The notes under the pieces are model-generated. The model saw only the letters and a program-made list of their open reading frames with translations. It was not told the DNA's origin and searched no databases. Positions 50,253-58,759 of a DNA stretch of 64,000 bases are shown here, piece by piece; position 1 is the first letter of the stretch; each line of letters begins with the position of its first letter. The position numbers and the translations under genes are program-made. This stretch comes from a virus, in the IMG/VR virus record IMGVR_UViG_3300045970_000027, positions 20,306 to 84,305 of that record. The stretch is one strand, 5' to 3'.

Positions 50253-50288
50253 ATGGTCTCTAGCCAGACTGAGAGAGTCTGGTCAAAC
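50253..50288 (-). promoter_or_regulatory. Promoter-like intergenic element, copy F
   Basis: Minus strand: TTTGACCAGACTC, then AGTCTGGCTAGAGACCAT. Contains a perfect 7-bp inverted repeat (CCAGACT/AGTCTGG, 5-base loop). Reads as TTGACC (-35), 18 bases, TAGAGA (-10), 16 bases before the next ATG. Near-identical to 10360-10395. Confidence 0.6.
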
Positions 50289-51152
50289 CTGCAGTTGCCC
50301 TAGGACGGTCGTTCCTATTGACGTCGGCGTAAATGGAATGCCGCAGACGCGTGGATCGCTGTGGTCCCACGCATACCAGTAGATCCGCTTGACGTCGAGC
50401 GCCTTGGCTACCTTGTCGGACCCCTTCATGTACGGCCGGACACTGACGTCGGAGATCTTCCCGCTCATCAGGTTGTAGTTGACCTCGGTACACCAGAGCC
50501 ACTTCTTGGGGGCCTGCAGGATGATCATGAAGTTGCGTACGGCTTGGGTGTGGGCCTTGAACTGCTCGGGTCCGCGACCCGGCTCGGGGTAGGAGTGGTA
50601 CGACAGAACGTCGCACGGCCAGCCTCGGACCTTCAGTGCGTTCCACCACTTGGAGCCACGGACCATCCCACCACTCGACGTCCTAGGCAGGACGGCGGCG
50701 GCGACAACCAACGCCTTCGGGTCGACCTTCTTGATGATGTGGTAGGCCCGCTCTGTCATCTCGGCTAGCACTCCGAATGACGCCGTACCCTCCCAGAAGA
50801 ACTTCGACTGCGGCTCGTTCCAGATCTGGTAGTGCAACTTCCCCTTGTAGCGAGTCACCACCTCGGTGACGAAGTCGTCCCAGTCGGCCAGATTGGAAGG
50901 CTGGCTAGCCGAGCCATCACCGATCCATGGGGCCGACTTGAGCGTGGGGTCCTTGGCCGCCCATGCTGGCGTTCCCGACAGGACGAGAAGCGCCTTAGGG
51001 TACTTCGCCACAAACTGGTCGAGTCGGTCCCAGTCGTAGACACCGGGTGTGGGGTTCAGGTCGCGCCATGCCACCCGGCAGTCCCATAGCCTGACCTGCT
51101 GGGTGGGTGGATCGTCGGTCAGTTCAAGAACGTTCACACCGTGAATGGTCAC
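50283..51152 (-). CDS. Virion glycoside hydrolase (clan GH-A)
   Basis: 289 residues with the clan A (beta/alpha)8 pattern: 'RLWDCRVAWRDLNPTPGVYDWDRLDQFV', acid/base Glu113 in 'IWNEP', 'SYHSYP' (His186) and nucleophile Glu223 in 'WCTEVNYN'. This is GH39/GH5-like. Inside a structural block it is probably a depolymerase or tailspike enzyme that cuts host surface glycan. The GTG start has no ribosome-binding site and lies in an inverted repeat (GGTCAC/GTGACC, 51147-51167); codons 3-8 contain a TTCACACCGTGAA-type palindrome. Confidence 0.8.
   Translation of the reverse strand: MTIHGVNVLELTDDPPTQQVRLWDCRVAWRDLNPTPGVYDWDRLDQFVAKYPKALLVLSGTPAWAAKDPTLKSAPWIGDGSASQPSNLADWDDFVTEVVTRYKGKLHYQIWNEPQSKFFWEGTASFGVLAEMTERAYHIIKKVDPKALVVAAAVLPRTSSGGMVRGSKWWNALKVRGWPCDVLSYHSYPEPGRGPEQFKAHTQAVRNFMIILQAPKKWLWCTEVNYNLMSGKISDVSVRPYMKGSDKVAKALDVKRIYWYAWDHSDPRVCGIPFTPTSIGTTVLGQLQV
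51133..51145. promoter_or_regulatory. TTCACACYGTGAA palindrome at the start of the glycoside hydrolase gene
   Basis: TTCACACCGTGAA (plus strand), 8 bases inside the coding start and ~40 bases downstream of a TTTAGCGCT element (51186-51194). One of six copies. Confidence 0.5.
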
Positions 51153-51189: not shown

Positions 51190-54069
51190 CTAAATCGGGA
51201 TGGTCCCCCAACTCTCAGTGATCTTTCGGCGACCTGTGGCCAACAGGCTAGACGTAGCAGATAGGGAGACGAAGCCGCCCGAGCCGCCGAGTGCGCCGTC
51301 GGCGGTCATGGTCGCCAGTGCAGTCAGGGCCGCCGACCCTCCGAAGATGACGAGAGGTGTCAGCGTGATGAGGTCGCTGGCACTGGATAGAGCCGACGCG
51401 GCCTGTGTGATCCGGTCGGCTGCAGACCCGAGCACAGTCGTAGACGTCATGGCCGAGGCGACGGTCTGGACCAGTGTGGCGACAGACGCCATGCTGCTCT
51501 GCCCGCTCATGGAGGCGTCGCCGATCCGTACCAGAGTGGCGTCAGCCGCGAGCGATGTTTGAGAACTGAGCGCTGATGTAACTCCAGTTATAACTACGAC
51601 CGCATTGCTAATCAAAGTCGACTGCGAGGTCAGCGCAGAAGATGCCGTGCTGATGTCGACGCCTGTGGCGGTCAGGTTGCTCTGAGCGGTTAGCGGGGCG
51701 GTATTACCGAGGAGGATGCCAGTGGCCGTCGCCGTCAGGCTGCTCTGTCCAGAGAGGGATACCACTCCGAGTTGGACCGCCGAAACGGCCCACGTCGTAG
51801 ACCGCGACGAAGCGACCGTTACCTTGGTTCCTCCAACGTCCCACGTAGTCGACCGCGACGACGTAGTGGTTGTCTTGACCGCCCAAGTTGTTGCGCGCGT
51901 GGAGGCTACCGACGCCTTGGCGTCCCAAGTGGTAGGTCGTGCAGAGGTGGCCGCCGACTTGACTGCCCACGTCGTCGGACGCGCTGCAGCGAGGAAGGCC
52001 TTGGCAGCCCACGTAGTCAGTCGGGAAGAGAGGACCCCCGCGAGGGCGTTCCACGTTGACGACCGGGCAACGGCGACGAGTGAAAGGACCCGCCACGTAG
52101 TCGACCTAGATGACGCGGTGGTGGCCTTGACGTCCCACGTAGTCGGCCGCAGGGAGGAGAGGAAGGCCTTGGTATCCCACGTCGTAGACTTAGCCGACAA
52201 CACTGGGGCGAGGGGGCTGACGACGTCCCACGTAGTCGACCTAGCGGACGTGACGCTGACCACAGCGTCAAGAATGTAGATCCCCGCGCCGTCCTCCATC
52301 TGGAGGTCGCCAGTACCGTCCTCCAGTAGGTAGCCCTCACGCGCAGTCGCAGCAACGTCCCACGTCGTTGACCTCGCCGAACTGACCGGAGCCTTGGTAT
52401 CCCACGTCGTACCGCGAGAGACGGCAACCCCCGCCTTGGTATCCCACGTTGTCGGTCGGACAGAAGAGAGGAACGCGCTGACCGCCCACGTTGTCGGGCG
52501 CACCGATGGTGTAGCAGTCAGGACCCGCCATGTGGTGGGACGTGCCGTCTGGACCCCGAGTTTGTAGTCCCACGTCGAAGAGCGGGTCGAAGTGACAGCC
52601 AACTTCGCATCCCACGTCGTAGACCTCGCTGCCGTGACGGCAGACTTCGTATCCCACGTCGTGAGTCGGGTCGCCGTCGTCGCAGTCTTGACAGCCCACG
52701 TCGTCGCCCGACTGGTGGCTAGTACTGCGGCGACCGCCCACGTTGTCACGCGCGAAGATGCCAGTTGTGCCTTGGAGTCCCAAGTACTCGACCTACTGGA
52801 GGTCAGGGCCGACTTGACCGCCCACGTTGTTGCCCGAGCAGACGCGAGAATCGCCTTCGCGTCCCATGTGGTCAGTCGAGAACTGGCTACAGCAGCCTTC
52901 TGGTCCCACGTCGTGGCACGCGAAGCGGAGACCGGGGTTAGTGCAGCAGTTACCGCGACATCCCACGTAGTCGGCCTAGCCGCAGAGACTGCAGCCTTAG
53001 TAACCCACGTCGTAGGTCGCGCTGTCGTGACAGCAGACTTGACCGCCCATGTTGTCGGCCTAGCAGAACTAGTAGCAGCCTTCGCGTCCCATGTGGTGGC
53101 GCGCGAACTGGCCGTGGACAGGAGTACGCGCCACGTTGTCGGACGTGCCCCGGTGACTCCAGCAAGGACTCGCCACGTCGTCGGTCGCGGGCTGGACAGT
53201 TGGGCCTTAGCGTCCCACGTTGTTGGTCGGGCGACCGCTACCTGTGACTGGGAGTTCCACGTCGTGGAGCGGGAAGAAGCGACGGGGGTTGTTGTAGTGG
53301 TAGCCGCTACATCCCACGTCGTGGCGCGAGTCGACGTGATGGGGGTAAGGCTAGAGAGGACGTTCCATGTAGTGGACCGAGTGGACGTGATACCGGGAGG
53401 GGCAGCGATGATGGAAGGTGACGCGTTTGGGGTTCCCACCCACGATGCCCCGACCGAGGAACCATCGAAGTACGCTCTTGGACTCGGCGTCGCCGTTATT
53501 TGGAACCCGTCGTAGTACGCTATTTCACCCGCCGCCGTGTAGGACGCGGTCGATATCGTGATGGTGACGCTGGTATCGAGACCACTGTTAGCCACTACCG
53601 ACATGCGGGTCCACACACCCGGTGTAATGCTGCTGTTGCCATACGGCGTACCGGTGGTGGCTGACGCCCACTGAATGGTGTACGAGTGCGCCCTCCCCAC
53701 GGTGGAATACACGTACACCGAGAAGTTGTACATCGTATTTGGGGTTAACCCGCTGAAGGTCTCCTGCCATGAGGAAAACCCCGCCGCAGTGTTCGTCTTC
53801 TGGATGGACGTAGTACCTGTGTACGCCACAGTTGATGACACGGATAGGGTCACATTGAAGGAGGTACGCGCGCTGCTGTACGGGGGTGCTGCGGCTAGTG
53901 ACGTCCCTGACGGGTCTGGGTGAAGGTTGGTAAGGACGGCGAGCGCCGCGAGATCCCACGTCGTAGACCTACTGGATGCTACGGGGACAGGGCCAGCGGT
54001 ATCCCACGTCGTGGCGCGGGTGGAGGTGACCTTCGCTTTACCCGGCTTGAGAAGGAGGAGCATACTCAT
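51190..54069 (-). CDS. Giant repeat fibre with 37 RxTTW units
   Basis: 959 residues. Two RxTTW units, one CBM-like jelly-roll domain (about 50-240), then 35 more units of about 14 residues (consensus R-[PAS]-T-T-W-[DA]-x-K-[AS]-x5), some lengthened. Unit 26 carries an insertion with the fibre motif 'YLLEDGTGDLQMEDGAG'. The last ~190 residues hold about nine repeats of 20-21 residues ([LM]-[ST]-x-Q-[ST]-x-[LM]). It is probably a surface-exposed beta-structured fibre; the CBM-like domain may bind glycan. The repeats are also visible in the DNA at ~42-bp period. Confidence 0.8.
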   Translation of the reverse strand: MSMLLLLKPGKAKVTSTRATTWDTAGPVPVASSRSTTWDLAALAVLTNLHPDPSGTSLAAAPPYSSARTSFNVTLSVSSTVAYTGTTSIQKTNTAAGFSSWQETFSGLTPNTMYNFSVYVYSTVGRAHSYTIQWASATTGTPYGNSSITPGVWTRMSVVANSGLDTSVTITISTASYTAAGEIAYYDGFQITATPSPRAYFDGSSVGASWVGTPNASPSIIAAPPGITSTRSTTWNVLSSLTPITSTRATTWDVAATTTTTPVASSRSTTWNSQSQVAVARPTTWDAKAQLSSPRPTTWRVLAGVTGARPTTWRVLLSTASSRATTWDAKAATSSARPTTWAVKSAVTTARPTTWVTKAAVSAARPTTWDVAVTAALTPVSASRATTWDQKAAVASSRLTTWDAKAILASARATTWAVKSALTSSRSSTWDSKAQLASSRVTTWAVAAVLATSRATTWAVKTATTATRLTTWDTKSAVTAARSTTWDAKLAVTSTRSSTWDYKLGVQTARPTTWRVLTATPSVRPTTWAVSAFLSSVRPTTWDTKAGVAVSRGTTWDTKAPVSSARSTTWDVAATAREGYLLEDGTGDLQMEDGAGIYILDAVVSVTSARSTTWDVVSPLAPVLSAKSTTWDTKAFLSSLRPTTWDVKATTASSRSTTWRVLSLVAVARSSTWNALAGVLSSRLTTWAAKAFLAAARPTTWAVKSAATSARPTTWDAKASVASTRATTWAVKTTTTSSRSTTWDVGGTKVTVASSRSTTWAVSAVQLGVVSLSGQSSLTATATGILLGNTAPLTAQSNLTATGVDISTASSALTSQSTLISNAVVVITGVTSALSSQTSLAADATLVRIGDASMSGQSSMASVATLVQTVASAMTSTTVLGSAADRITQAASALSSASDLITLTPLVIFGGSAALTALATMTADGALGGSGGFVSLSATSSLLATGRRKITESWGTIPI
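51330..54060 (-). repeat. Tandem ~42-bp coding repeats plus 60-63-bp repeats
   Basis: The DNA shows regularly spaced CCCACGT(C/T)GT-type words at ~42-bp intervals between about 51780 and 53360 (and at both gene-start copies near 53950 and 54010), encoding the TTW core. A second period of 60-63 bp covers about 51230-51770. The reading frame is intact throughout. Confidence 0.85.
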
Positions 54070-54080
54070 GTGCTACCTCC

Positions 54081-54743
54081 CTAGGGCAGGTACTCTTCCC
54101 AGCGAAGATTGACGAGCCACATGTCGGTGACAGGGTTCTGGGTAGCCAGCGTGTAGTCGAGTCGGACGACGATCCCCTCCAGTGGACGGAGGACGATGTA
54201 CTCCAACTGTGGACCCATGAAGACCATCGTCGGCGGGATGTCGAAGCCAGCGGCCGTGATCATGCGGGGGACGAACTCCCCAGCCACGACAGCACCAGCG
54301 ACGAGGGTCGCCGCGAGAGCGGTAGCCGACGACGTTCCATCAGCCGACGCATCCTGCAGGAGAGTCACACTGGCTGATGTCGCAGTTGCCGTCGAATCCT
54401 CGGCGACCTTCGTCAGGGCGGTGCCGCTCGTCGGAAGTGCGGTCACCTTGTAGAGCCGCAGGACGGGAGGAAGAACGGTGACGGCCTTGATGACGGTAGC
54501 CGTCATGTCGACAGTGATCCGGTTAACTTGCACGACGATGGCCGAACCGGTCGCGTTATGGATCGACGCGAGATTCTGTCCCGCTGTACCAGCCCTGCCG
54601 GGGATGCGGAAGGTGGAGGCCGAGCCGCAGTACCCGTCGTGGTCGCCGACGATGACGAACTGACGGTGATCGCCGTTCGTCACGGTGTACGTGTCGACGT
54701 TAGTACCCGTGCCAGCCGTGATCGGGATAGACGTGTTCGCCAT
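54081..54743 (-). CDS. Virion surface/decoration-type protein
   Basis: 220 residues, beta-rich and Ala/Thr rich. It starts 'SIPITAGTGTNVDTYTVTNGDHRQFVIVGD' and ends 'MGPQLEYIVLRPLEGIVVRLDYTLATQNPVTDMWLVNLRWEEYLP'. Composition and place among fibre genes indicate a structural protein. Exact role unknown. Confidence 0.65.
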   Translation of the reverse strand: MANTSIPITAGTGTNVDTYTVTNGDHRQFVIVGDHDGYCGSASTFRIPGRAGTAGQNLASIHNATGSAIVVQVNRITVDMTATVIKAVTVLPPVLRLYKVTALPTSGTALTKVAEDSTATATSASVTLLQDASADGTSSATALAATLVAGAVVAGEFVPRMITAAGFDIPPTMVFMGPQLEYIVLRPLEGIVVRLDYTLATQNPVTDMWLVNLRWEEYLP

Positions 54744-55064: not shown

Positions 55065-55727
55065 CTAGAGGTTGTACTGGGTGAGCAACTGGTGGTAGCG
55101 GTCCATTCCTTCATCGAACAGGTCGTACTCGCGTGCGTTCCTCTCGCGGAACATGGCCTCGGTGTACTCACCTTCTGGGTACTTGGCACCGATGGGCTTG
55201 TCAGGGTTCTCGTTCCAACGATGTCCGTAGGGCTGGTGCGGTAGGAGTTCTTGTAGCAGAGCCTCACTCGTTGTCATCTCATCCGTATGACCTACGAAGT
55301 CGAACTGGCTGGGTGTCATCGTGTCAAAGTGGTAGGCGAGCGCGTGGTTGGGGACCGACCGCTCCAACCAGATGTCCGGGGTCGTGCTCAAGTCTCGGGC
55401 TAAACCAAGGTTGTGCTGGTAATGCGGAGTCCAGACGAAGCGGTTCTTCTTCTCGGGGTCCTCCGCTATCCGCGCTAGTTGGTCTACGTCGAAGTTTGGC
55501 TTCGCGGCCATACGCCGCAGCATGTAGAACATCGACAAGGACGTCTGGTACGGGTTCCGCACCATCGTCAGCCAGATCGAACCTGTGACCGGCTGGACTT
55601 CGGATACTGGGTAGTGCCCACCTCGCAAGACCACTTCGTCGGGGTGGTGATGCTCAAGAATCTCCATGAGTGCCCACAGATGCGTAGTTCCCGTCTTGGG
55701 TACGCGGATCATCACAAGGTTCTTCAT
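55065..55727 (-). CDS. Sulfotransferase-like protein 1
   Basis: 220 residues. The PAPS-binding loop 'MIRVPKTGTTHLW' (residues ~6-18) and the second phosphate motif 'MVRNPYQTSLSMFYMLRRM' are in place, as in heparan-sulfate 2-O-type sulfotransferases. It would move sulfate from PAPS to a sugar or protein. Inside the virion gene block it may modify a fibre or a host glycan. The start overlaps the fibre gene (ATGA). Confidence 0.8.
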   Translation of the reverse strand: MKNLVMIRVPKTGTTHLWALMEILEHHHPDEVVLRGGHYPVSEVQPVTGSIWLTMVRNPYQTSLSMFYMLRRMAAKPNFDVDQLARIAEDPEKKNRFVWTPHYQHNLGLARDLSTTPDIWLERSVPNHALAYHFDTMTPSQFDFVGHTDEMTTSEALLQELLPHQPYGHRWNENPDKPIGAKYPEGEYTEAMFRERNAREYDLFDEGMDRYHQLLTQYNL

Positions 55728-57634: not shown

Positions 57635-58210
57635 TCATACCCCGTACTGGTCGCAAAGCGCGCTGAACCGTGCAAGACCGGCACGGTACGCGATGTAGTC
57701 CTTAGGGTTATCCCGCTCAAACTGCTTCCGGTCGTAGTTGGTGGTGTACGGGACTGCCACCATCTTGTTCGGGTTGACGTTAGCCTGTAGCGGGCCAACC
57801 AGCCTGATGTTCAGCACGGCATGCAGGAGGAGGAAGGACCGCGCCATCTGCTCTGCTTGCCCCACAAAGGTGAAGGACGCGATGTCTAACGACTCAAAGA
57901 ACTTCCCGTACGTCTCATCGTGGGATGCCGCAAGAAACTGCTCAAGGGAGGCACCACTACTGACAAGCGGTCGATCTCTGTCGTTGCCGGGGATGTTGGC
58001 GAACATGGCAGGCTCACGCAGGTAGGCGTAGTAGAGGCTGGCGCGGGTCTGCATCGGTTCTCTGATCATTGTGACGTACTCATGGGTGTGGTCGCACCCG
58101 GCCAATCTTGCTGGAAGGACATGACCACCGCAGTACGTGATGTTGTTACCACTTAGCGTTCCCGCGAGTACCGTTGAACCTGTCTTGGGAACTCGGAGGT
58201 AGGTAATCAT
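57635..58210 (-). CDS. Sulfotransferase-like protein 2
   Basis: 191 residues. PAPS loop 'YLRVPKTGSTVLA' at the N-terminus and second motif 'VTMIREPMQTRASLYYAYLRE'. 'CGGHVLPARL' gives the substrate-side His. Weakly similar to the 55065-55727 product, so the two may be diverged paralogues. It ends with the same 'LCDQYGV'-type tail as the partner's 'LLTQYNL'. Confidence 0.78.
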   Translation of the reverse strand: MITYLRVPKTGSTVLAGTLSGNNITYCGGHVLPARLAGCDHTHEYVTMIREPMQTRASLYYAYLREPAMFANIPGNDRDRPLVSSGASLEQFLAASHDETYGKFFESLDIASFTFVGQAEQMARSFLLLHAVLNIRLVGPLQANVNPNKMVAVPYTTNYDRKQFERDNPKDYIAYRAGLARFSALCDQYGV

Positions 58211-58216
58211 CTACTG

Positions 58217-58759
58217 CTACAGCGACCCAGTGTCACCCTGCACCGAGAGCGTCACGCCATCAGCCGTGAGGGCGGTTGTGTTGGCGGCGGTGCGCCGGAT
58301 CCAGAATGCACGGCAGGATCCAACGGGGATCGTACCGAGAGCGATACCGGTCGCGAAAGTGGTCGGCGACGTGAAGGTCACACCAGCAGGAGCAGTCGTC
58401 TCATTGGCGATGGTCACGGCCTGAGCCACAGCCGCACCGATGAGCGAGGCAGCAGTCGGGTCGACCCCGATAGCGATGGAGGCACCACCCGCAGTCTCCG
58501 CGCTGATCCATGCGAAGACGGTCTCGTACGGGTTAGTCGCATTGCTGTTGTGGATGAAGATGCACCTGTAGTCGACCGTCGAGGCGGCGTTCTCAGCACC
58601 CGTGATGTTGTCGAAGAGGTCGTTGACAACACTGCCCGCCCACGCCGTCGTACTGATCTGGTCACCCAGCGCAGTAGACGCAGCAGACGTCGTCGTGTTT
58701 CCAGCGGCGGCGACAACGGAGTACTTCCAGAGTACTTCGCCAGTAGTGATTGCGGTCAT
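58217..58759 (-). CDS. Virion structural protein
   Basis: 180 residues, Ala/Thr rich, beta. 'IFIHNSNATNPYETVFAWISAETAGGASIAIGVDP' and 'GIALGTIPVGSCRAFWIRRTAANTTAL' look like a phage beta-sandwich decoration or head-fibre protein. No specific family. Confidence 0.65.
   Translation of the reverse strand: MTAITTGEVLWKYSVVAAAGNTTTSAASTALGDQISTTAWAGSVVNDLFDNITGAENAASTVDYRCIFIHNSNATNPYETVFAWISAETAGGASIAIGVDPTAASLIGAAVAQAVTIANETTAPAGVTFTSPTTFATGIALGTIPVGSCRAFWIRRTAANTTALTADGVTLSVQGDTGSL

Follow-up and report, generated by a model that had tools for sequence, protein, structure and literature searches.

The repeat gene and its surroundings

The stretch of DNA analysed here (the window; 64,000 nucleotides, G+C 61%) comes from a viral record of 84.3 kb. 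An open reading frame with an ATG start on its minus strand, at 51190..54069, encodes a repeat protein of 959 aa that is rich in T, A and S and contains 37 RxTTW units. The pattern [RK].[TS]TW matched this protein exactly 37 times, the number of R-x-(T/S)-T-W units given in an earlier sequence-only reading, whereas 1000 composition shuffles gave 0.2 matches on average and never more than 3. The 14-residue pitch, described there as fixed, is strongly preferred (28 of the 36 spacings) but not strict, as the other eight spacings are 16, 17, 17, 17, 19, 19, 44 and 197 residues. Position 5 is a W in all 37 units.

The motif positions and gaps divide the protein, all on the minus strand, as follows. 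Two N-terminal units (aa 18-45; 53935..54018) precede a CBM4/22-like jelly-roll insert (aa ~46-226; 53392..53934, delimited by an AlphaFold model and a Foldseek search of the PDB), which enters unit 2 after its TTW strand and accounts for the gap of 197 residues. The main array of 24 units, mostly of 14 residues (aa 231-576; 52342..53379), is separated from a second array of 11 units (aa 610-769; 51763..52242) by the YLLEDGTG-type insertion already described, which we located in the 44-residue gap (aa ~577-605; 52255..52341) and which is also present in the L037 homologue. The remainder (aa ~770-946; 51232..51762) consists of nine repeats of ~20-21 residues and a tail. Autocorrelation of the C-terminal 190-200 or so residues was best at lags 20 and 21 (35-36 identities, compared with roughly 12-24 at most other lags and 30 at lag 14) and nine units were counted by eye, in agreement with the proposed second repeat family of about nine 20-21-residue units. 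The relative L148 shares 62% identity over the C-terminal 95 residues. Read on the opposite strand, the repeat codons give rise, as a by-product, to a long antisense open frame (52592-53515 (+)) containing HVV repeats.

In the window, the module has the major head protein gene on one side and the sheath, tube and baseplate genes on the other. Beside the repeat gene, 54081..54743 (-) encodes a 220-aa protein; in L021, the gene for a 67% identical homologue immediately precedes the RxTTW gene. The next gene downstream, 50283..51152 (-), encodes a GH39/GH5-like glycoside hydrolase that is also found in L148 (80%). Inside the structural block are two small proteins, encoded at 55065-55727 (-) and 57635-58210 (-), whose starts, MIRVPKTGTTHLW and YLRVPKTGSTVLAG, resemble the PKxGxT P-loop of sulfotransferases; neither had Pfam support or a PDB sequence match.

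A 14-residue unit kept in register

We derived a unit profile from 344 units of exactly 14 residues in 24 RxTTW proteins, W5 being used for the selection. Besides the selected W5, the consensus comprises R1 (93%), T/S3 (99%), T/S4, V/T7 and V/I/A11. Conserved positions are thus mostly odd-numbered, which is the pattern expected of one face of a beta-strand. Longer units, of 15-19 residues, have their additional residues at two sites, one lying between positions 7 and 11, the other ahead of the following R. Where motifs were skipped, leaving motif gaps of 21-90 residues (n = 72), 44 gaps were exact multiples of 14 and 68 exceeded a multiple of 14 by 0-3 residues. Loss of the motif therefore leaves the register intact, and this speaks for a continuous fold rather than for docking motifs that act independently.

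Predicted structure

No Pfam family matched the window protein, and PDB sequence and PHROG searches revealed no family explaining the repeat, the only PHROG match being a weak one to phrog_6079, 'tail protein' (E 0.0029). For these three databases, this agrees with the earlier remark that no named fold with the TTW periodicity was known. PDB sequence matches of the window protein to antibody chains were rejected as chance.

An AlphaFold2 monomer model of the N-terminal insert and nine units (alignment of 33 rows) placed two strands in almost all units, one near positions 4-7, the other near 11-13. Prediction over consecutive units, suggested earlier as a check, gave regular strands, not disorder, at low confidence (pLDDT ~63-70, pTM 0.37 for the monomeric model). 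Such low confidence and the high T/A/S content are what one might see in a flexible, largely unstructured tether, or in a protein that is translated with the late operon but is no part of the virion. We consider this improbable, given the strict 14-residue register, the alternating conserved positions, the regular predicted strands and the fusion of homologous arrays to the neck protein gp15 (see below).

Among the Foldseek matches listed against the PDB, no solved structure convincingly resembled the repeat part. Triple beta-spiral shafts, as in the adenovirus fibre and reovirus sigma1, are made of ~15-residue repeats with two strands and loops of variable length, and so resemble the window repeat as predicted, with its short two-strand units and length-variable loops. 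The PDB comparison, however, gave no sequence or fold match between the two, and we know of no triple beta-spiral shaft with a conserved W-[ND]-V-[RK] core (the core defined below). A repetitive virion fibre is of a kind already known, but there is a fair chance that the fold is new.

Carbohydrate-active domains in and beside the arrays

The N-terminal insert was modelled with a confident jelly-roll core (blocks up to pLDDT 87-89), and Foldseek matched the model to CBM4/CBM22-type modules (8xmz, E 7.6e-5; 1k42, E 8.6e-4; TM normalised by target 0.38-0.48). The suggestion of a CBM-like domain near the N-terminus is borne out by this model: the insert is CBM4/CBM22-like by predicted fold, and its sugar binding is putative. 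The array proteins of L037 and L049 have inserts that resemble it in appearance. Other arrays contain embedded domains of different kinds, namely an apiosidase-like glycoside hydrolase and a LamG domain in L182 (8547-11798), and a calcineurin-like metallophosphoesterase in L174 (1514-4168). The GH39/GH5-like hydrolase encoded next to the window array is possibly part of the same surface-glycan function as the repeat protein.

These carbohydrate-active domains, the GH39-like neighbour and the invariant aromatic in each unit might suggest that the repeat itself is a multivalent glycan- or wall-binding element, in which the aromatic of every unit would lie in a ligand site, as in choline-binding repeats. 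Neither the window protein nor the other arrays had a Pfam match to choline-binding-type or other wall-binding repeats, though, and the W shares one strand face with other conserved hydrophobic residues, in alternation, a pattern that we take to indicate a buried core. The family is moreover found in Vibrio phages and in Actinobacteria-linked elements alike. We thus regard binding by the units themselves as improbable.

A conserved partner gene

The strongest clue is a gene that the sequence-only reading had missed. When the genes of the window were compared with those of the RxTTW loci, one recurrent neighbour was exposed, 41-77% identical, which in the window lies at 58217-58759 (-), separated from the array gene by ~4 kb that contain six ORFs. 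It encodes a 180-aa protein with a predicted beta-sandwich and belongs to phrog_13135 (E 4.5e-23; PHROG label: unknown function). Foldseek found no significant PDB match for this predicted fold; similarities to GH123 enzymes, adaptins and pilins were all weak, with TM no higher than about 0.36 and every E above 0.001, and were rejected.

A search of whole records, which took in one partner-only record (L158), found the partner in 20 of 24. Three of the exceptions (G011, G021, G023) are short fragments with the repeat gene at or near the contig end, and the fourth, G022 (L145), is a false RxTTW locus and not a true array. Every RxTTW contig long enough to show the partner thus has it. The reverse search, with an alignment of the partner, yielded 80 loci; once contigs already found via RxTTW were left out, 44 independent viral loci had at least 2.5 kb downstream. 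A strict detector, combining a lag-14 signal with a W/Y chain, found an array downstream of the partner at 27 of these 44 loci (17 without) and upstream at 0 of 55, and a looser detector found a downstream array at 34 of the 44 (10 without); a few partner contigs are near-duplicates, so that the effective numbers are somewhat smaller than 44 and 55.

This linkage, which is near-obligate, and the contrast between a single, highly conserved partner and highly variable arrays are arguments for the main alternative to a stacked shaft. According to it, the array would be mostly an extended chain in which each W motif docks one copy of the partner, so that array length would set the number of partner molecules decorating the neck or head. 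The predicted beta-sandwich of the partner belongs to a fold class able to accept a donated strand. Independent motifs would, however, allow free linker lengths, which does not fit with a 14-residue register that persists across lost motifs, and binding of partner to array is itself a prediction. We therefore consider docking of this sort unlikely, though less so than the two alternatives discussed above, and a continuous, stacked array remains the reading that we prefer.

A wider family defined by its core

Pattern scans of IMG/VR identified about 22 true RxTTW loci, with 6-46 units each. Three RxTTW-like motifs were found in each of 87 bacterial contigs, of which only L074 (a Gemmatimonadetes MAG) and L127 (an Arthrobacter MAG) were true members; most of the others were rejected as unrelated frames or 7-mer repeats. 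Among tblastn matches of the full protein, those to Aeromonas vB_C4, BUCT552 and E. coli PhiR12_3 were rejected as other frames or simple repeats. A match to Vibrio phage 1.081.O, spurious-looking at first, turned out to be real.

Arrays found via the partner are mostly non-RxTTW (LQLVWNDRATVGKN, AASAWNVRAAVxRT, VQxIWNVRxxVGDT, LxLSWDIRAxxGDx, etc.). The average over 26 of them was W/Y5, N/D6 (58%), V/T/I7 (81%), R/K8 (52%) and V/I11 (54%), where W/Y5 was selected and V/T/I7 and V/I11 partly so, N6 and R8 being independent of the selection. A family HMM built solely from partner-found array blocks without R.[TS]TW matched the window protein (best domain 28.0 bits; column-permuted control HMMs 4.6-14.9), gp15 of Vibrio phage KVP40 (32.5 bits; controls at most 7.4) and almost all other RxTTW proteins. 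This test is stronger than a simple column comparison of RxTTW with gp15 (p ~0.03 only). Judging from these alignments, the core of the family is W/Y-[ND]-[VTI]-[RK]-x-x-[VI] at a 14-residue pitch; R-x-T-T-W, previously taken as the defining motif, is not, its R and TT being one flavour of a repeat whose conserved core is W-[ND]-V-[RK]-x-x-V.

Pieces of this system are already contained in phrog_6079 (the arrays, of which several others match it, best E 7.7e-25) and phrog_13135 (the partner), but neither entry mentions the repeat or a two-gene module. Tail proteins of Casjensviridae (L001 2325-6905; L003 5837-10267) have C-terminal arrays of PYNLRSTVQAELLP 14-mers, and the family HMM scored 16.6 bits with the best domain of L003 (controls at most 3.2). 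They share with the window family the 14-residue pitch and the core order Y-N-L-R-x-x-V, but differ in that their array forms the C-terminal part of a large tail protein. The partner gene was not found in the Casjensviridae loci examined, each of ~12.5 kb. The RxTTW/W-Y repeat family is thus widespread in tailed phages and apparently undescribed, as no published account was found in the open-access literature, which misses most subscription papers.

The module in cultured phages and other named elements

Homologues of the partner were found in 53 of 50,697 phage records, 52 of Vibrio and 1 of Alteromonas phages. In KVP40 the partner is gene 0353 (KVP40.0353), which adjoins gp15. Residues 1-222 of KVP40 gp15 match the solved T4 gp15 (E 6e-53), and beyond residue 222 the protein continues as a 14-residue W array in the form of a C-terminal extension. 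T4 gp15 is homologous to residues 1-222 only, its 272 residues in the PDB entry leaving no room for a long array. A tblastn search of the 50,697 records with one metagenomic array (L232) matched only 35 of them, all of the KVP40 group and all 35 with the partner. In Vibrio phage EniLVp02 the repeat aromatic is Y. The KVP40-like gp15, a tail sheath stabilizer or tail completion protein, thus has in common with the window the 14-residue W/Y repeat, the neighbouring partner and a variable number of units, whereas its array is shorter, is fused to a neck protein and lacks the RxTTW flavour. In the records examined, neither the gp15 extension of KVP40 nor gene 0353 has a function assigned to it. 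The array is absent, as a repeat, from KVP40-like annotation and from the papers found, and no virion mass spectrometry or proteomics for KVP40 or any other family member was found in the open-access literature.

In an Alteromonas podovirus the partner stands beside a short protein with aromatic repeats of, by eye, about 14 residues; this protein had no significant score with the family HMM and is a lead only. A prophage-like block of the Paenarthrobacter plasmid pYJN5-2 (L247 8001-10476) has the partner divided between two reading frames. The protein encoded after it has four R-x-V-S/T/A-W/Y-D/S-V/I units, and its score with the family HMM was not significant. The domain fused to these units looks like a tail protein, judged by its place.

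A possible modular arm

We propose, with a probability of about one half, that the array is a modular, beta-structured virion arm bearing glycan-active domains, with the partner as its dedicated companion. Each 14-residue unit would contribute two short beta-strands, one around the W (positions ~4-7) and one at positions ~11-13, and a shaft would arise from the in-register stacking of the units. The inter-strand loops or the ends of the array would accommodate extra domains (carbohydrate-binding, lectin-like, glycoside hydrolase, phosphoesterase), an arrangement that suggests their display to the host or the surroundings. In relatives, fusion to a virion hub may anchor the array. This hub is the neck protein gp15 in KVP40-like phages and, apparently, a protein of the tail module in the Paenarthrobacter prophage. 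The array of the window phage is a protein of its own, and the ~180-aa partner would probably bind the array as an adaptor or cap. Some observations weigh against the arm: the low confidence of the monomeric model, the PDB comparisons in which neither the repeats nor the partner fold had a convincing match, the 17 of 44 partner loci at which the strict detector found no array, and the distance between the two genes in the window. Across loci, the genes upstream of partners include members of many different major head protein, portal and terminase families; this variety and the position of the module in the window suggest that the place in the virion probably differs between phages, the neck (gp15) being the best supported. 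One might speculate further that the repeat is a new self-assembling beta-fibre fold, used as a plug-in shaft across unrelated head and tail lineages with the partner as a universal connector, a tentative proposal in which we have less confidence than in the arm itself.

What began as one odd metagenomic protein thus becomes a testable two-gene module in many phage lineages, including KVP40, and as the KVP40 group is cultured, the module can be tested directly. If our reading is true, the shaft could be extended by single 14-residue units and loaded with sugar-binding or sugar-cutting domains, which would be of value to studies of host contact and of rigid protein repeats.

Number of units

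The number of units would, in the proposed arm, set the length of the shaft. Expansion and contraction through DNA repeats had been predicted for the window gene, yet its own DNA bears no sign of recent expansion in unit identities, exact repeats or fourfold sites. Its 14-residue units have a mean DNA identity of 54% (adjacent units 54%, best pair 76%), no exact repeat is longer than 21 bp, agreement at fourfold sites is 37% where composition alone would give 28%, and Tandem Repeats Finder reported only 2.6 copies. We infer an old age for these units, with selection at the protein level holding them together. The part of the prediction that concerns length variation is supported by the relatives, among which a comparison of repeat number, as had been advised, gave a range from 6 to 46 units. 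In the KVP40 group gp15 varies from 319 to 504 residues, and the arrays of KVP40 and QD01 differ by exactly 14 residues, that is, by one unit. For Vibrio phage 1.081.O, the public record labels 42-bp repeats within the gp15 array (L159 5316-5509) as CRISPR spacers; they are coding sequence, each repeat specifying 14 residues.
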